From Curtobacterium sp. GC_Cur_3 (GTDB lineage: Bacteria; Actinomycetota; Actinomycetes; Actinomycetales; Microbacteriaceae): a DNA stretch of 64,000 nt. Below the pieces are notes generated by a model, which had not been told where the DNA came from, searched no databases, and saw nothing but the letters and a program-made list of their open reading frames with translations. Made by a program: the position numbers and the translations under genes. The stretch covers positions 1 to 64,000 of the forward strand of contig NZ_JALNUI010000003.1 in the NCBI RefSeq assembly GCF_026544205.1, given 5' to 3'. This document shows, in pieces, positions 39,081 to 45,872 of this stretch; within the stretch, counting starts at the first letter, position 1; every line of letters begins with the position of its first letter.

Positions 39081-40148
39081 ATGAGCGAGATCATCACGAC
39101 CGGACCACGTCCCGGCACCAGCGGCACGTCCAGCTACACGGCGTTGCTCGCCAGGATCAAGGACGAGGGCCTGCTCGGTCGCCGCACCGGCTGGTACTGG
39201 GGACTCATCGTCGTCCTCGTCGCCCTGCTCGCGCTCGCCGGAGCCGCGTTCGCCGTGCTCGGCGACTCGTGGTGGCAGCTCGTCATCGCCGGCGTGCTCG
39301 GTCTGCTGTTCACCCAGTTCGCCTTCCTGGCCCACGAGGCCGCGCACCGCCAGGTGTTCGCCTCGCACACCTGGAACGACCGCGCCGCCCGCTACGGCGG
39401 CACGCTCCTGACCGGGATCAGCTACGCCTGGTGGACCGGCAAGCACACCCGGCACCACGCCAACCCGAACACGGTCGGCAAGGACCCGGACATCTCCTTC
39501 GACGCGATCTCCTTCCGCCCCGAGGACGCCGCCAGCCGCACCGGCTTCCTGCGCGTGCTCGTCCGGGTGCAGGGCTGGGCGTTCTTCCCGATGTTGCTCA
39601 TCGAGGGCGTCAACCTGCACTGGCAGTCGATCCGCACCTACACGAGCCGCGGTCCGGTCAAGGGCCGATGGTCCGAGGCCTCGGTGTTCGCGGTCCGCTT
39701 CGCGCTCTACCTCGGCGTCGTCTTCTGGTTCCTGCCGCTCGGCATGGCGTTCGCGTTCCTCGGCGTGCAGCTCGCCGTGTTCGGCTTCTGCATGGGCATC
39801 GCCTTCGCGCCGAACCACAAGGGCATGCCGATCATCGAGCCCGGTCGCCGCGTGGACTTCTTCTCGCGCCAGGTGCTGACCTCCCGCGACATCACCGGCG
39901 GGCGCTGGGTCGAGTACTTCATGGGCGGCCTCAACCACCAGGTCGAGCACCACCTGTTCCCGAACATGGCCCGACCGAACCTGCGGGCCGCGCGGGTCAT
40001 CGTGCGCGACTACTGCGGGACGCAGGGCGTGCCGTTCACCGAGACGACGCTCGTGCAGTCGTACGCGATCGTCGTGCGCTACCTCAACGAGGTCGGGCTG
40101 GCGGCGGCGGACCCGTTCGCGTGCCCGATGGTCGAGCGGCTGCGCTGA
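39081..40148 (+). CDS. Membrane fatty acid desaturase
   Basis: A 355-residue acyl desaturase with the three histidine boxes that bind the di-iron centre: HEAAH (85-89), HTRHH (122-126) and HQVEHH near residue 292. Hydrophobic segments lie between the boxes. It would insert a double bond into membrane lipid acyl chains using oxygen. The ATG at 39081 follows CGGAGGA. No dedicated ferredoxin or reductase lies next to it. Confidence 0.9.
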   Translation: MSEIITTGPRPGTSGTSSYTALLARIKDEGLLGRRTGWYWGLIVVLVALLALAGAAFAVLGDSWWQLVIAGVLGLLFTQFAFLAHEAAHRQVFASHTWNDRAARYGGTLLTGISYAWWTGKHTRHHANPNTVGKDPDISFDAISFRPEDAASRTGFLRVLVRVQGWAFFPMLLIEGVNLHWQSIRTYTSRGPVKGRWSEASVFAVRFALYLGVVFWFLPLGMAFAFLGVQLAVFGFCMGIAFAPNHKGMPIIEPGRRVDFFSRQVLTSRDITGGRWVEYFMGGLNHQVEHHLFPNMARPNLRAARVIVRDYCGTQGVPFTETTLVQSYAIVVRYLNEVGLAAADPFACPMVERLR

Positions 40149-40162
40149 GCGCTCGCATCGTC

Positions 40163-40204
40163 GACGGGCGGGAAGCGCCCCCCAATGGCCGCTTCCCGCC
40201 CGTC
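40163..40204. terminator. Bidirectional terminator hairpin
   Basis: GACGGGCGGGAAGCG (40163-40177) and CGCTTCCCGCCCGTC (40190-40204) are perfectly complementary over 15 bp. It separates the convergent desaturase and membrane-protein genes. Confidence 0.8.
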
Positions 40205-40209
40205 GCCCG

Positions 40210-40977
40210 CTATCCCCAGATCTGCTGCTCGACGGCGCCGAGCAGGTTGGTCGTGGGGAAGTTCGTCTGGCCGATCTCGAACCACGTCGTGCCGCGGAGG
40301 TACCACGTGGCCGTGGTGTCGACCGGGTACGGGTCCGCTGGCCGCGTCTGCGTGCAGACACGCGCTGCACCGCGGTCGGTGCACGCGTAGCCCTGTCCGA
40401 CGAGGGTGGCCTCGTAGGCGCTGACCTGCTCCGCCGTCCCCGTGCCGACGTCGATCGACAGGCCGGACACGTCGGCCCGGGGATCGCGCCACACGCACGA
40501 CAGGCTCGTCGTGAGCGGAGCAGGGCCGGCGCGCAGGTGTGCCGTGCCGGAGGGGTCCTGGAGCGGGGTCCCTCCGAAGAGCCGTGCCGCCTCCGACGGG
40601 GCGACGAGCCCCGTGCAGTCCGACGGGATCGTGGCCACGACCGGAGTCGGCGTCGCGGTGGGTGTCCGTGTCGGGGTGGGGTCGGGTGTGTCCTCGACCG
40701 GTGCCGCGGCGGGGGTGCTCGGCGCTGCCGGTTCCGTCGGGCTGGGCGTGGAGGCCGGTGCTGGTGCGGCGGCGAACGGCTGCGGGATCATCCCGAGGGC
40801 GACACCACCACCGGTCGCACCGAGGCCGAGGAGCGCGATCACGCCGATGACGATCCCGGCACGACGGCCACGTCGGCGGGGCGCCGGGCGGCGTTCCTCC
40901 GCGCGGTCGAGCACGCTCTGCTTCATCGTGACGAGCATGCGCTGCAGGTCGTCTCCGGTGGGGGGCTCAGTGTTCAT
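40210..40977 (-). CDS. Single-pass membrane protein of a sigma-factor module (copy A)
   Basis: A 255-residue protein: a cytoplasmic N-terminus of about 40 residues, one membrane segment (IVIGVIALLGLGATGGGVAL), a Pro/Ala/Thr linker to about residue 115, and an extracytoplasmic domain with several cysteines (DCTGLVAPSEAARLFGG, YACTDRGAARVC). It starts inside the end of the sigma-factor gene, so it is the natural candidate for its anti-sigma partner, although no zinc-finger anti-sigma motif is seen. Residues 1-102 are almost identical to those of the protein at 43388-44227, while the rest is unrelated. Confidence 0.75.
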   Translation of the reverse strand: MNTEPPTGDDLQRMLVTMKQSVLDRAEERRPAPRRRGRRAGIVIGVIALLGLGATGGGVALGMIPQPFAAAPAPASTPSPTEPAAPSTPAAAPVEDTPDPTPTRTPTATPTPVVATIPSDCTGLVAPSEAARLFGGTPLQDPSGTAHLRAGPAPLTTSLSCVWRDPRADVSGLSIDVGTGTAEQVSAYEATLVGQGYACTDRGAARVCTQTRPADPYPVDTTATWYLRGTTWFEIGQTNFPTTNLLGAVEQQIWG

Positions 40978-41473
40978 CGTGCATCACCGCCTTCTCCTGT
41001 CGGGGTCGGGACGTCCGTTTGGTGACCGGCTGTGCGCGCAGGCCGAGCAGCCGGGCGGCTTCGGCGTAGGAGTGCCCGTCGACCAGGCACAGTTCCACGA
41101 GCCGCTGGTCGATCGGTGCCAGGGCCGCGATCTCGTCGCGCACCCAGCGCAGGCCGTCGGCGTCCGACGGTGACGACGGCTGGCCCTCGTGTTCGGCGGA
41201 CCGGGGTGCCTGGCTCCTGGCATGGTCTCGGCACACGGCCAGCAGCCACGGCAGCAGTGCGCTGGTGACCAGGCCGGTCGTGGGGGCTTGCTGCCACAGG
41301 GTGAGGAACGTGTCCTGCACCAGGGCTTCGACGTGGTCTGGGCTGTCGGCCTGTGCCCATGCGGAGCGGGTCAGGGTCGGCGCGAAGCGGTCGAACGCGT
41401 CGGCCAGTGCCGCGCGGTCCCCGCTCGCGAGCCGACGCATCAGTGCTGCGTCGGTGCTGGTGTCGTCATCCAC
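40967..41473 (-). CDS. ECF-like RNA polymerase sigma factor (copy A)
   Basis: A 168-residue sigma-70-family protein. Region 2 is DAFDRFAPTLTRSAWAQA, then LVQDTFLTLWQQA, and region 4 is LAPIDQRLVELCLVDGHSYAEAARLLGL. It is about 11 residues shorter than copy B, and the end of region 4 (AQPVTKRTSRPRQEKA) lacks the clean recognition helix seen in copy B, so promoter binding may be weakened. The GTG at 41473 follows GAGGGGG. It overlaps the membrane-protein gene by 11 bp. The upstream sequence is conserved with copy B. Confidence 0.85.
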   Translation of the reverse strand: MDDDTSTDAALMRRLASGDRAALADAFDRFAPTLTRSAWAQADSPDHVEALVQDTFLTLWQQAPTTGLVTSALLPWLLAVCRDHARSQAPRSAEHEGQPSSPSDADGLRWVRDEIAALAPIDQRLVELCLVDGHSYAEAARLLGLRAQPVTKRTSRPRQEKAVMHDEH

Positions 41474-41492
41474 GGTTGCCCCCTCTCACTAC

Positions 41493-41521
41493 AGAAGTGT
41501 CGAGAGCGATGCGATCCTGAC
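41493..41521 (-). promoter_or_regulatory. Putative autoregulatory ECF promoter, copy A
   Basis: On the minus strand GTCAGGATCG, 9 bp, then CGACACTTCT. The identical blocks with identical spacing occur upstream of copy B although the bases between differ, which suggests a promoter read by one of the two sigma factors. Confidence 0.5.
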
Positions 41522-41549
41522 ACCACCTGTCAGATTCGTGCGCGGAGGG

Positions 41550-42032
41550 TCAGACGCGTCCGCGGTTGCGGCGGCGGATCTCCTTCGGAGCCCGGCCGGC
41601 CTGGAACGACCGCGCGGGGTCGACGACGAAGCCCTGCCGCAGTGCCTCGCGGCCGATGAGCATCCGGAAGCCCATCTGGTCGCGGTTGCTCAGCGTGACC
41701 TCGGCCTCCACCGTGCGGCCGGCGAGCTCGATCGCGGTCAGGACGACGATGCGCTCCTGTGCGTGACCGGACGAGCTCCGGACGACGCGGCGGTCGTGGA
41801 CGTCGCACTCGACGGTCGCCTGGTCCGCGTCGGAGTCCTGCCACGGGTGCACCGAGAACCGCACGCGGTCGCCCGGCAGCTCCTCGAGGTCGAACGCGTG
41901 CAGCGCCGATGTCCGTGCGCCCGTGTCGAGCTTCACCTTGATCCACGGGATGTCGAGGTCCGGCAGGGCGGCCCACTCGCGCCAGCCCGACACGATCGGC
42001 GTGCGCCGCGTGGGCTTCGGGTCGTCGGCCAT
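41550..42032 (-). CDS. RimK-associated putative ATP-dependent zinc protease (PF05618)
   Basis: A 160-residue retropepsin-like protein of the DUF785/RimK-partner zinc-protease family: IKVKLDTGARTSALHAFDLE with the active-site DTGA, then HAQERIVV, and GFRMLIGREAL. It is divergent from the RimK-like ligase gene, a pairing repeated in many bacteria. The family is thought to act with RimK-type ligases on peptide tails, but this is not settled. ATG at 42032. Confidence 0.85.
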   Translation of the reverse strand: MADDPKPTRRTPIVSGWREWAALPDLDIPWIKVKLDTGARTSALHAFDLEELPGDRVRFSVHPWQDSDADQATVECDVHDRRVVRSSSGHAQERIVVLTAIELAGRTVEAEVTLSNRDQMGFRMLIGREALRQGFVVDPARSFQAGRAPKEIRRRNRGRV

Positions 42033-42070
42033 GCGCCCATCCTGTCAGGGCGGCACCCGCTGTGCGGCTC

Positions 42071-42118
42071 TCGTGGCCGACGGCACGCCCGCCGCCTCGA
42101 TCGTGGCCGACGGCACGC
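42071..42118. repeat. Direct repeat pair in the rimK divergent promoter
   Basis: TCGTGGCCGACGGCACGC occurs at 42071-42088 and 42101-42118, spaced 30 bp. It may be a regulatory site for the divergent protease and ligase genes. Confidence 0.5.
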
Positions 42119-42186
42119 GCGCGAGGCGGTTCGTCTGCCAGCATGGAGCGTCGCCGTCGCCACCCCCGAACCCGCGGAGCCTCCCG

Positions 42187-43377
42187 ATGAAACTCGCCAT
42201 CCTCTCGCGCGCCCCGCAGGCGTACTCGACGCAGCGACTCCGCGCGGCGGCACTGGACCGCGGCCACGAGGTCAAGGTGCTGAACACCCTGCGCTTCGCG
42301 ATCGACCTGACCGGGGACGCGCCCGACCTGCAGTACCGCGGCAAGCTGCTGTCCGACTACGACGCCGTCCTGCCGCGCATCGGCAACTCGATCACGTACT
42401 ACGGCACGGCGGTGGTCCGACAGTTCGAGCAGATGGACGTCTACACGCCGAACACCGCCAACGGCATCACGAACTCGCGGGACAAGCTCCGGGCGAACCA
42501 GATCCTGTCGCGGCACGACATCGGCATGCCCGCGACGACGTTCGTCGCCGGTCGGGCCGACGTCCGCGGGGCGATCGAGCGGGTCGGGGGAGCACCCGTC
42601 GTCATCAAGCTCCTCGAGGGCACCCAGGGCATCGGCGTGATCCTGGCGCCCGAGGCGAAGGTCGCCGAGTCGATCGTCGAGACGCTGCACTCGACGAAGC
42701 AGAACGTGCTGATCCAGCGCTTCATCGCGGAGAGCCGCGGGAAGGACATCCGCGCACTCGTCGTCGGCGACCGGGTCGTGGCCGCCATGCGCCGGAGCGC
42801 GAGCGGCGACGAGTTCCGCTCGAACGTGCACCGCGGCGGCACCGTGGAGCAGGTCACCCTGACGCCGGAGTACGAAGAGGCAGCGGTCCGCTCCGCGCAG
42901 ATCATGGGGCTCCGCGTCGCCGGCGTGGACATGCTCGAGGGCAACGACGGCCCCCTGGTGATGGAGGTCAACTCGTCACCGGGGCTGGAGGGCATCGAGC
43001 GCGCCACCGGCCTCGACATCGCCGGGGCCGTCATCGACTTCATCGCGAACCAGGTCGCGTTCCCGGAGATCGACGTCCGTCAGCGCCTGTCGGTCTCGAC
43101 CGGCTACGGCGTCGCAGAGCTCCTCGTGCACACGAACGCGGACCTGGTCGGCAAGACGATCCACGAGTCGGGCCTCGGTGACCGCGACATCACCGTGCTC
43201 ACGCTCCACCGTGGCTCGACGGTTATCCCGAACCCCCGTGGCACGGTCACCCTCGAACCGGGCGACCGGCTGCTCTGCTTCGGCAAGCTCGAGGAGATGC
43301 GCTCGATGATCCCCGAGCGCCGCAAGCGCCGCGCGAAGCTCCGCAAGCTCCCGAAGGAGCACCTGCCGGAGAGCTGA
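42187..43377 (+). CDS. RimK-like ATP-grasp ligase with C-terminal RCK_C domain
   Basis: A 396-residue protein. Residues 1 to about 300 are a RimK/ATP-grasp ligase (LAILSRAPQAYSTQRLRAA, VVIKLLEGTQGIGVIL, DIRALVVGDRVVAAMRR, GPLVMEVNSSPGLEGIE), which adds glutamate or another amino acid to a protein or small-molecule carboxylate. Residues about 310-380 (GVAELLVHTNADLVGKTIHE, then LEPGDRLLCFGK) match the TrkA_C/RCK_C ligand-binding domain. Classical RimK is about 300 residues and lacks this part, so activity may be allosteric. ATG at 42187. Confidence 0.85.
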   Translation: MKLAILSRAPQAYSTQRLRAAALDRGHEVKVLNTLRFAIDLTGDAPDLQYRGKLLSDYDAVLPRIGNSITYYGTAVVRQFEQMDVYTPNTANGITNSRDKLRANQILSRHDIGMPATTFVAGRADVRGAIERVGGAPVVIKLLEGTQGIGVILAPEAKVAESIVETLHSTKQNVLIQRFIAESRGKDIRALVVGDRVVAAMRRSASGDEFRSNVHRGGTVEQVTLTPEYEEAAVRSAQIMGLRVAGVDMLEGNDGPLVMEVNSSPGLEGIERATGLDIAGAVIDFIANQVAFPEIDVRQRLSVSTGYGVAELLVHTNADLVGKTIHESGLGDRDITVLTLHRGSTVIPNPRGTVTLEPGDRLLCFGKLEEMRSMIPERRKRRAKLRKLPKEHLPES

Positions 43378-43387
43378 CCCGAGGGTC

Positions 43388-44227
43388 TCAGTCGCACGAC
43401 ACCTGCGCGTTCGCCCCGATCTCGACGGACTCCACGTGCACTCCGTCGGCACTCAGCTTCAACCACGCCGGACCGGATCCGGTGTCGATCTGCCACGACG
43501 TCCCCGCGTTCTGCGCCTGGGGGGTCTCGTAGTAGTTGCTACGGGCTGTGTCCTCGGTGGCGCCAGGGTAGGCGGCACGCAGTTCGTCGAGCGTCGATCC
43601 GACGCCGATCCCCTTGCTGGTGGTCGGACCGATCCGCTCCAGGGCCGGGTCCGCGCGCGGGACGCTCAGGTCCACGCCGATGACCTTGCCGCCCTGCGAC
43701 CAGACGAGCAGGCCCGGGGCGCCGTCTCGTGCCCAGCCACTCCCGAACTCGTCGGAGCAGACGTCAGCATCAGCGTCACGGCGCCAGGCCGTCTCGAGGT
43801 CGTCCGTCTCGCCTGCCGTCGGCCCGCCGATCGCCACCGGACCCATCTCGGTGCCGGAGATGGTCCACGTCGACGGGTCGTCGAGCGTGAAGGCGCCCTT
43901 CGTCGGGGTCGCCGAGGCCGATGGCGTCGGGTCGGGTGTCTCCTCGACGGGTGCGGCCGCGGGGGTGCTGGGTGCTGCCGGCTCGGTGGGGCTGGGGGAG
44001 GTGGCGGGTGCGGGTGCTGCGGTGAAGGGCTGCGGGATCATGCCGAGGGCAACGCCGCCGCTGGTGGCGCCGAGGCCGAGGAGTGCGATGACGCCGATGA
44101 CGATCCCGGTGCGCCGGCCACGGCGCCGGGGTGCCGGCGTTCGGTCCTCGGCGCGGTCGAGCACGGACTGTTTCATCGTGACGAGCATGCGGTGCAGGTC
44201 GTCTCCGGTGGGGGGCTCAGTGTTCAT
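43388..44227 (-). CDS. Single-pass membrane protein of a sigma-factor module (copy B)
   Basis: A 279-residue paralogue of the protein at 40210-40977. The first 102 residues (cytoplasmic part, membrane segment, Pro/Ala linker) differ by only about a dozen residues. The extracytoplasmic part (LDDPSTWTISGTEMGPVAIGG, TLDELRAAYPGATEDTARSNYY) is unrelated to copy A. It overlaps the sigma-factor gene by 11 bp and is probably its membrane partner. The distal part recalls bacterial lipoproteins of unknown function. Confidence 0.75.
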   Translation of the reverse strand: MNTEPPTGDDLHRMLVTMKQSVLDRAEDRTPAPRRRGRRTGIVIGVIALLGLGATSGGVALGMIPQPFTAAPAPATSPSPTEPAAPSTPAAAPVEETPDPTPSASATPTKGAFTLDDPSTWTISGTEMGPVAIGGPTAGETDDLETAWRRDADADVCSDEFGSGWARDGAPGLLVWSQGGKVIGVDLSVPRADPALERIGPTTSKGIGVGSTLDELRAAYPGATEDTARSNYYETPQAQNAGTSWQIDTGSGPAWLKLSADGVHVESVEIGANAQVSCD

Positions 44228-44756
44228 CGTGCATCACCGCCTTCTTCAGTCGGGCTCGGGATCGGGAGACGCGTTGGGTGACGGCGCCGATGCTGAGGCC
44301 GAGGATCTGTGCGGCTTCGGCGTAGGAGTGGCCTTCGAGGAGGCAGAGTTCGCAGATGCGTCGGTCGATGGGTGCCAGGGCTGCGATCTCGTCGCGGACC
44401 CAGCGGAGGCGTTCGCGGGCCTCGTCGGCGTCTGCACGGGCTGGCAGCTCGGACGGCAGTTCGTCGCCGGTGTTCTTGGCGAGGCGTCGGGTCTGGTTGC
44501 GGGCGTGGTTGCGGCAGACGACGAGGAGCCAGGGCAGGAGTGCGCTGGTGGCGAGGTCGATGGTGGCGGCTTTCTGCCAGAGCGTGAGGAAGGTGTCCTG
44601 CACGAGTTCTTCGACGTCTTGTCGGCGTTCTGCCTGTGCCCATGCGTAGCGGGTCAGGGTGGGTGCGAAGCGGTCGAACGCGTCGGCGAGTGCTGTGCGG
44701 TCCCCGTCCGCGAGTCGACGCGTCAGTGTTGCGTCGGCTTGGGTGTCGTCATCCAC
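44217..44756 (-). CDS. ECF-like RNA polymerase sigma factor (copy B)
   Basis: A 179-residue sigma-70-family protein. Region 2 reads DAFDRFAPTLTRYAWAQAERRQDVEELVQDTFLTLWQ, and region 4 LAPIDRRICELCLLEGHSYAEAAQILGLSIGAVTQRVSRSRARLKKA has an intact helix-turn-helix. It looks fully functional. Close paralogue of copy A, in the same order with its own membrane protein. GTG start behind GAGGGGG. Confidence 0.88.
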   Translation of the reverse strand: MDDDTQADATLTRRLADGDRTALADAFDRFAPTLTRYAWAQAERRQDVEELVQDTFLTLWQKAATIDLATSALLPWLLVVCRNHARNQTRRLAKNTGDELPSELPARADADEARERLRWVRDEIAALAPIDRRICELCLLEGHSYAEAAQILGLSIGAVTQRVSRSRARLKKAVMHDEH

Positions 44757-44775
44757 GGTTGCCCCCTCTCACTCA

Positions 44776-44804
44776 AGAAGTGTCGGACACGGCCCGATCC
44801 TGAC
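44776..44804 (-). promoter_or_regulatory. Putative autoregulatory ECF promoter, copy B
   Basis: GTCAGGATCG, 9 bp, CGACACTTCT on the minus strand, as at copy A, about 20-50 bp upstream of the sigma gene. Confidence 0.5.
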
Positions 44805-44879
44805 GAGCCGTCACACCCCTCGGCGTGTCGCACGGGTGCGCCAGTGCAGGAGCACGGTGCCCCAGTGCAGGATCAAGGG

Positions 44880-45872
44880 GTGAACCAACTCCCCGAGGTC
44901 CTCCGGTCACCCCTGCACGTCGCACCGATGGCGGGCGGGCCGTCGACGCCGGCGCTCGTGATCGCCGCGGCCCGGTCCGGCCAGTTCGCCTCCCTGGCCG
45001 GCGGGTACCGCACCGTTGAGGAGCTCGCGGCCGAGATCGCCGAGGTCCGCACGCGCACCGACCGCTTCGGCGTCAACGTGTTCGCGCCGAACCCGGTCCC
45101 GATCAGCGACGCCGACTACGACCGGTACCGCGCGTCCCTCGGCGCCCCCGATTTGCCCGACAAGCGCGAGGACGACGACGCCTGGGCGGACAAGCTCGCG
45201 CTGCTCCTCGACGACCCGGTGCCCGTCGTCTCCTTCACGTTCGGGCTGCCGTCGGCCCAGACCGTCGCGGACCTCCGCAGGCGGGGCACGGTGACGGTCC
45301 AGTCGGTCACCAACCCGGTCGACGCCGCTGCCGCAGCCGAGCGGGGGATCGACGTGCTGGTCGTGCAGGGCGAGGCAGCCGGCGGACACTCCGCGGTCCT
45401 CGACCCCGAGCAGTCGCCCGTGTGGGAACCCCTGCCCGACCTGGTGCGCGCCGTCCTGGCACGGGTCGACCTGCCCGTGGTCGCCGCCGGTGGCATCGGC
45501 GGCGCTGACGACGTCGAGGCCGTCCGCCTCGCTGGTGCGTCCGCCGCGATGGTCGGCACGCTCGTCCTCCGCACCGACGAGGCGGGCACCGGAGCCACCC
45601 ACCGCGAGGCCCTCGTCGACCCCGTCTTCGACCGCACCGCGCTCACCCGCGCCTTCACCGGACGACCGGCACGCGCACTCGTCAACCGCTTCGTCCGCGA
45701 GCACGAGGACGCACCGCTCGGCTACCCGGCGCTGCACCACCTGACCCGGCCCATCCGCACGGCCGCCGCCGCCGAGGGCGACGCGCACGCGCTGCACCTG
45801 TGGGCCGGCCGGTCCTGGCGGGCCGCGTCGGACGGTCCGTTGGCGGACACCCTGGAGGCCCTGCTCACGTGA
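44880..45872 (+). CDS. Nitronate monooxygenase-family protein
   Basis: A 330-residue FMN TIM-barrel enzyme (PF03060) that oxidises nitronates such as propionate 3-nitronate, or is a related 2-nitropropane dioxygenase. Seen: [20 protein letters not shown] at the start, VSFTFGLPS, the active-site His in [11 protein letters not shown], and [14 protein letters not shown] for phosphate binding. GTG at 44880; in-frame GTGs at 44865 and further upstream are possible. A short repeat of CCAGTGCAGGA precedes the start. Confidence 0.87.

Follow-up and report, generated by a model that had tools for sequence, protein, structure and literature searches.

Constant sigma factor/anchor gene pairs with an exchangeable outer domain in Curtobacterium

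How do two membrane proteins encoded near each other come to share nearly the same first hundred residues, and nothing at all beyond them? The question is raised by positions 40,210 to 44,756 of a 64,000-nucleotide (nt) stretch of the Curtobacterium sp. GC_Cur_3 genome (contig NZ_JALNUI010000003.1, positions 1 to 64,000, hereafter the window), in which two gene pairs, or modules, each combine a sigma factor gene with a gene for a one-pass membrane protein. Judged from alignments with related genomes, the outer domain of the membrane protein is a hypervariable cassette that is replaced as a block at constant loci. The interpretation that we favor, with moderate confidence, is that the modules pair a sigma factor of the extracytoplasmic function (ECF) type with a short membrane anti-sigma sensor whose outer domain is exchangeable, that they transcribe themselves, and that degenerate copies serve as extra sensors or as decoys. 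The features of the two modules are as follows.

44781..44804, reverse strand: module 2, putative promoter element GTCAGGATCGGGCCGTGTCCGACA (upstream-element search)
44217..44756, reverse strand: module 2, intact ECF sigma factor P0004, 179 residues, GTG start (open reading frame, Pfam, sequence matches)
43388..44227, reverse strand: module 2, one-pass membrane protein P0003, 279 residues, outer domain type Y (open reading frame, Y family, model)
44030..44227, reverse strand: module 2, anchor, residues 1-66 (conserved in 85 modules; model)
43391..43894, reverse strand: module 2, outer domain Y, residues 112-279 (Y-family profile, model, structure matches)
41498..41521, reverse strand: module 1, putative promoter element GTCAGGATCGCATCGCTCTCGACA (upstream-element search)
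40967..41473, reverse strand: module 1, degenerate sigma P0002, 168 residues, GTG start, recognition helix and linker shortened (Pfam, alignment)
40210..40977, reverse strand: module 1, one-pass membrane protein P0001, 255 residues, outer domain type X (open reading frame, X family, model)
40780..40977, reverse strand: module 1, anchor, residues 1-66 (conservation across modules)
40213..40644, reverse strand: module 1, outer domain X, residues 112-255, four Cys invariant in the aligned family (X-family profile, model, structure matches)

The initial annotation of this DNA described the membrane proteins as near-identical over residues 1-102 and unrelated thereafter, and this is borne out: P0001 and P0003 agree at 93 of 102 residues, similarity ends around codon 101-102, and the profiles of the X-type and Y-type families can be aligned with each other only over columns 1-106 and 1-110, respectively. 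At the DNA level, the modules share a single block of similarity (79.5% identity over 883 alignment columns) that begins 48 nt 5' of the sigma start codon and extends roughly as far as codon 101-102 in the membrane gene, with no similarity beyond. The same annotation recognized the sigma factors as paralogs in the same order and with the same overlap, and indeed they are 71% identical and both gene pairs overlap by 11 nt, but it missed that the sigma of module 1 is degenerate; the promoter element common to both modules was absent from it as well. As the synonymous divergence (dS) of the anchor, 0.445, is close to that of the sigma genes, 0.505, with a nonsynonymous divergence (dN) of the anchor of 0.058, the likeness of the two anchors is attributed, from substitution patterns, to protein constraint and not to recent copying, and gene conversion as its cause was rejected on the same values. 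A third module is present in the same genome on another contig (G000:C66:92890-93738). Between module 1 and this copy (L087), dS is 0.058 over the anchor at 40780-40977 of the window and 0.270 over the sigma gene, and local gene conversion between these two anchors within the genome is possible. The genome also encodes a more distant sigma/one-pass pair (L012, G000:C20:11835-15026, sigma open reading frame 950-1504), with an anchor-like match at an expectation value (E) of 5.7e-4 and 43% identity.

Further copies with the conserved N-terminus, which the initial annotation proposed to look for in this genome and its relatives, turned out to be many. A search of the genus with the membrane protein of module 2 gave matches in 57 of 66 Curtobacterium genomes, and 85 modules with the anchor motif MNTEPPxGDDLQRMLVSMKQxVLxRA, from 53 of the 66, were analyzed (87 listed anchor places minus G038:C1:385480 and G055:C1:394835). 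With the upstream sigma assigned by homology, not by distance, a related sigma gene lies directly upstream of every one of the 85 anchor genes, the junction being an 11-nt overlap in 79 cases, a 4-nt overlap in three and a 25-nt gap in three. Profile searches seeded with the two outer domains of the window assign 50 modules to type X, 29 to type Y and four to a tandem of X then Y, two being truncated; single-linkage clustering lumped 83 of the 85 outer domains, owing to the four proteins that possess both.

A constant signaling part with an exchanged outer domain, as was initially suggested, is upheld by these 85 modules, by 13-14 changes of type on the tree and by orthologous loci that differ only in the outer block. 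A quick tree of sigma plus anchor (83 rows) gives 14 changes of outer type, and a careful one (73 rows, leaving out 10 of 13 rows with a degenerate sigma) gives 13. On the strongly supported branches of the careful tree at least nine changes are forced for X and 10 for Y, and a single origin of X or of Y is seen in 0% of 200 bootstrap trees. As read from these trees, exchange is recurrent, not free. The most direct evidence comes from a DNA-level comparison of 17 module pairs, four of which are allelic, with X in one species and Y in the other, the first break falling within the linker and the second close to the stop codon, and X and Y being unrelated between the two. In one example, L063 carries X and L092_7943 carries Y; the two agree at 96.3% over a stretch that begins 1.5 kb upstream and reaches the linker, and identity resumes, at 95.3%, 10 nt short of the stop codon's end. 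The other three have flanks identical at 94.0% on the upstream and 92.8% on the downstream side (L051/L093), at 94.3 and 98.4% (L105/L098), and at 87.6% and, over 89 nt downstream, 89.9% (L100_7183/L099_7031). Module 2 of the window, of type Y, is itself at the same locus as an X-type module (L051 in G033), with flanks at 94% and sigma at 0.94. Since the sequence downstream remains 93-98% identical across a change of domain, no co-varying partner gene is recognized next door to the allelic pairs.

The same picture is obtained from all 308 module pairs that have both flanks in common, of which 19 differ in outer type, 15 of them as X versus Y; these same-locus counts ignore kinship, and the pairs are not independent. 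Where locus and type are both the same and the sigma factors are at least 95% identical (n = 29), the median identity of the outer domains is 51% (38-100), and among same-locus, same-type pairs with a sigma dS below 0.4 the outer dS exceeds the sigma dS in 80 of 84. This raised synonymous divergence points to recombination with divergent alleles, not merely to fast protein change. One alternative would dispense with exchange altogether: an ancestral X-Y protein was duplicated, X or Y was then lost copy by copy, and the degenerate sigmas are decaying pseudogenes. The four X-Y proteins do exist, Y alone is found at their locus in one species (L104), module remnants occur in two genomes (L182, L183), and dN/dS is raised in the degenerate sigmas (0.30-0.64 in eight chosen pairs, versus 0-0.19 in 10 pairs of intact ones). 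However, repeated X/Y changes between near-identical sigma and anchor genes need replacement, the raised dS of same-locus, same-type domains speaks for replacement and not for loss alone, and the degenerate sigmas possess open frames with dN/dS below 1. We therefore consider this scenario quite improbable as a full account, while domain loss also occurs, given the lone Y of L104. Cassette replacement, as in the favored reading, may have had local sources: one locus (L088, G053:C10:122500-137500) holds three modules in about 5 kb, in the order Y, X, Y, the last two adjacent, and such repeats are a possible recombination source of new combinations.

In a family-wide sample of 299 genomes, the anchor profile finds matches at E 0.001 in 50; many of these are weak and confined to the membrane stretch, and about two dozen genomes have matches below 1e-10. 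Outside Curtobacterium, among 69 loci, the anchor is present in Frigoribacterium, Frondihabitans and Agromyces, where at 17 of 20 loci the outer part gives no convincing match to X or Y, most of these being proteins of about 420 residues; one Frondihabitans genome encodes both an X and a Y protein. The proteins of about 420 residues on the anchor of Frigoribacterium, Agromyces and one Frondihabitans (L218, L219, L220, L234, L238, L243, L260-L264, L266-L271) align weakly, at 50% probability, with the X profile in their first outer part, and may represent either a third type of outer part or a doubled X that has diverged.

What the exchanged domains do is not revealed by their folds. AlphaFold models, built from 30 (X) and 16 (Y) sequences, have confidences of about 84-97 for X and 66-97 for Y in ten-residue blocks. 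Structures that resemble X are TM1622 (Z 9.3), the extracellular sensor domain of PknH (4esq; Z 9.2, 136 residues, root-mean-square deviation 3.3) and TiME (Z 9.0), and those to Y are YfeY (2qzb; Z 10.0) and YjgB (4ygt, DUF4309; Z 9.6), with BLIP a weak match (Z 4.0). Such scores exceed the common background of 7-8 only modestly, and function cannot be read off a fold. The likeness to PknH and mycobacterial envelope proteins for X, and to YfeY and YjgB for Y, is at the level of fold only, at 10-14% identity, and the same is true of the likeness of X to immunity and envelope proteins. Foldseek returned no match for either model at E 0.001 or better, and the X-family profile had none by sequence in the PDB at E up to 1.

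Turning to the constant part, the anchor consists, within residues 1-66, of a cytoplasmic helix, an Arg-rich stretch and the membrane helix, the cytoplasmic N-terminus being roughly 38 residues long (EPPxGDDLxRMLVxMKxxVL). A sigma gene followed by a translationally coupled gene for a one-pass membrane protein is the usual layout of an anti-sigma operon. The one-pass topology, the Arg-rich stretch before the membrane helix and the operon order make an anti-sigma factor with an outer sensor a fitting assignment for these proteins, of an unusual kind. Class I (ASDI/ZAS) factors have a profile-recognizable cytoplasmic domain of about 50 residues or more, the average being 101 +/- 33 residues (PMC7406223, in excerpt); the about 38 residues before the membrane stretch here do not fit this class in length, and no profile matches. 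Class II (CnrY-like) factors, which wrap the sigma with the two helices of a short cytoplasmic part, are a candidate class; the models predict one N-terminal helix in each protein, at residues 9-28 (X-type) and 8-27 (Y-type), with a predicted local distance difference test score (pLDDT) of about 52-68, the confidence being low in the membrane stretch. RsgI-type factors are excluded by the absence of an RsgI Pfam match and by the partner, an ECF sigma that possesses region 4. The very short cytoplasmic part and the lack of a recognized anti-sigma domain could also mean that the membrane protein serves to activate or recruit the sigma factor rather than to inhibit it; with operon order and translational coupling both being those of established anti-sigma systems, we regard this as highly improbable.

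In favor of binding, inhibitory as we prefer to see it, the anchor core is as constant beside a degenerate sigma (98.4% consensus, 13 modules) as beside an intact one (97.2%, 72 modules). This constancy, retained even next to sigmas stripped of their DNA-contact parts, suggests sigma binding by the anchor and, for the membrane proteins of degenerate modules, binding in trans to an intact sigma.

The sigmas fall into intact and degenerate ones. P0004 is an ECF sigma factor by both of its regions (Sigma70_r2, PF04542, 40.5 bits, cut-off 24; Sigma70_r4_2, PF08281, 46.1 bits, cut-off 25.7), with sequence matches to CnrH, SigK and SigL chains. P0002 falls below the cut-off for PF04542 (19.4 bits, <24) and above that for PF08281 (29.3 bits, >25.7), its recognition helix is altered, and there is shortening of both the linker and region 4.2. 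Degeneration of this kind is seen in 13 of the 85 sigmas, including those of module 1 and of the C66 copy: 17-43 of 94 strongly conserved columns are missing, while the next-worst sigma misses 12, the basic stretch after region 2 is shortened and the recognition helix of region 4 is altered. They nevertheless retain the start, an open frame and the C-terminal overlap and, as dN/dS ratios indicate, are under selection that is relaxed yet constrained. All 13 are in genomes that possess another, intact module, and the 27 genomes with a single module have none (hypergeometric P 0.004, kinship uncorrected). In one of the former genomes, G010, the intact sigma adjoins a truncated membrane gene.

One system that comes to mind is PhyR/NepR/EcfG, in which a sigma-like protein has degenerate promoter-contact parts (PMC8103513, in excerpt). 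P0002 shares such degenerate parts, and no receiver domain was found in it; PhyR does possess such a domain and acts by titrating an anti-sigma factor that is soluble, whereas the degenerate Curtobacterium sigma is a free small protein beside a membrane partner. Sigma mimicry of the PhyR kind is, by analogy, a lead for these proteins. A variant of the decoy idea would have X and Y as a recognition polymorphism under balancing selection across species, with the degenerate sigmas as decoys that compete for anchors and so tune the one intact sigma; we think this unlikely, if worth keeping in mind. In our preferred model, in which the outer domain is the input of a sensor, duplicate modules such as module 1, which retain the anchor, the outer domain and the promoter, would be extra sensors, or sigma decoys, acting on the intact sigma of another module.

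Output, in turn, may be read from the DNA upstream. The element GTCAGGATC-N11/12-GACA is found 5' of the sigma gene in 57 of 85 modules in its strict form and in 77 in a loose form (shuffles: mean 0.22, maximum 2), at a median of 23 nt from the sigma start (range 17-43), and is likely an autoregulated promoter of the module. The strict element is near the sigma gene in six of the 20 loci of other genera, with none in the four Agromyces loci. Its strict pattern has four sites in the present genome, at the three modules and at one place on C25 without a fitting gene. Across the 66 Curtobacterium genomes a wider pattern yields 134 sites (reversed-pattern control: 2), 59 before modules and 75 elsewhere. 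The classification of the latter is biased, as the 42 that were inspected (40 stretches) were chosen by eye and recurrent coding-like sites were mostly left out; 22 of the 42 are within 70 nt of the start of a member of one of three secreted families, namely 11 wall proteins whose C-terminus is LAxTG-like, which we take to be a sortase signal, seven lipoproteins of about 150 residues, and four lipoproteins that contain a Y-like domain. Pfam gives no match to any of these families at E 0.1, and none of five GTCATGATC variants of the element stands before such a gene. A protein search with the family of about 150 residues gave 13 good matches, preceded by the strict element in eight cases (which come from the motif list by construction), by a looser one, judged by eye, in three, and by none in two. 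Another two of the 42 sites precede the apparent module remnants, L182 (G056:C23:63000-66500) and L183 (G050:C220:11800-15200); these two genomes have no match in the membrane-protein search, and a fragment of the X domain is still recognizable in L182.

The occurrence in relatives of wall proteins and free Y-domain lipoproteins preceded by this element, together with the hypervariability and block replacement of the outer part, could also be taken to mean that the membrane protein is a variable surface protein and not a sensor, the sigma factor being its dedicated, self-transcribing switch and phages, competitors or hosts driving the variation. It is hard to see, however, why a mere membrane anchor should need a cytoplasmic core (residues 1-26) that keeps about 97-98% consensus even beside a degenerate sigma, and we hold this reading to be rather unlikely, without calling it far-fetched.

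The sequence of events in the anti-sigma sensor model would be the following. The cytoplasmic N-terminus of some 38 residues, unusually short for an anti-sigma factor, would act as one by binding and holding the sigma; the outer domain, whether X or Y, would sense something at the cell surface, upon which the sigma would be released; the freed sigma would transcribe its own module from the GTCAGGATC-N11/12-GACA promoter and, in some species, also the genes for surface lipoproteins and wall proteins from promoters of the same type. Homologous recombination would replace the outer cassette, with sigma, anchor and flanks staying in place. Family, coupling, constancy of the anchor, replacement of the cassette, the common upstream element and the constrained degeneration of some sigmas are observations, to which we add, by inference, anti-sigma action, sensing, a regulon and cross-wiring between modules.

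Several points weigh against this model. For P0001 and P0003, none of the anti-sigma models in Pfam and NCBIfam matches with an E of 0.1 or less. The X and Y labels are more clustered on both trees than shuffled labels. No regulon beyond the modules is seen in the present genome with the strict pattern, the relatives of the wall proteins in it (C56) are without the element in the forward direction, and three further free Y lipoproteins of other species are also without it. Finally, the element itself (41498-41521 and 44781-44804) resembles an inverted repeat, TGTC...GACA, two helical turns apart, and may, by this symmetry, be the site of a dimeric regulator. At two places (L170, G000:C56:107000-113000; L189, G053:C1:978000-984000) a different element, TGTC-N11-GATCATGAC, is present on the other strand about 150 nt before tandem wall-protein genes.

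Between the two modules of the window lie two further genes.

41550-42032, reverse strand: RimB-like retropepsin (open reading frame and domain matches)
about 42187-43377, forward strand: RimK (open reading frame and domain matches)

The RimK protein, within 41998-43377 of the forward strand, possesses a C-terminal TrkA-C domain (PF02080, E 2.4e-10). No vegetative promoter and no terminator were found in 40000-45000 (shuffles gave 0.1 and 0.8, respectively), and defense-system models match none of P0001-P0003; a TniQ match to P0004 (E 0.004) is taken as chance.

In the open-licence literature, including that on Curtobacterium ECF sigma factors, we found no description of this family. By analogy, the closest system is SigI/RsgI of Clostridium thermocellum, of which the present modules are not members. 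It comprises multiple pairs, with an inner domain, a membrane helix and divergent outer sensor domains, and RsgI9 is without a sigma factor of its own (PMC12203970, in excerpt). The likeness is in the multiple sigma/membrane pairs with a constant inner part and divergent outer domains. The differences are several: SigI has a special C-terminal domain in place of sigma region 4 (PMC6056542, in excerpt), whereas the Curtobacterium sigma is of the ECF type with region 4; the inner domain of RsgI, its periplasmic autocleavage domain and its carbohydrate-binding modules are not seen in the Curtobacterium modules; and replacement of the outer block between species at one locus is a Curtobacterium feature that does not appear in the excerpts of the SigI/RsgI literature at hand. 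With the ECF sigma factors controlled by class I (RseA, RskA) or class II (CnrY) anti-sigma factors, the modules share their gene arrangement, in which the ECF sigma comes first and a one-pass membrane protein next.

Modular anti-sigma sensors with varied outer domains are already known; what the present case adds is replacement seen directly, in orthologous loci with flanks 93-98% identical that differ in the outer domain only. By such replacement a species could alter what the pair presents outside without rewiring what lies inside. The allelic loci amount to natural swap experiments, bearing on the signal set by the outer domain, on the hypervariability of sensors and on the role of sigma factors that have lost their DNA contacts.

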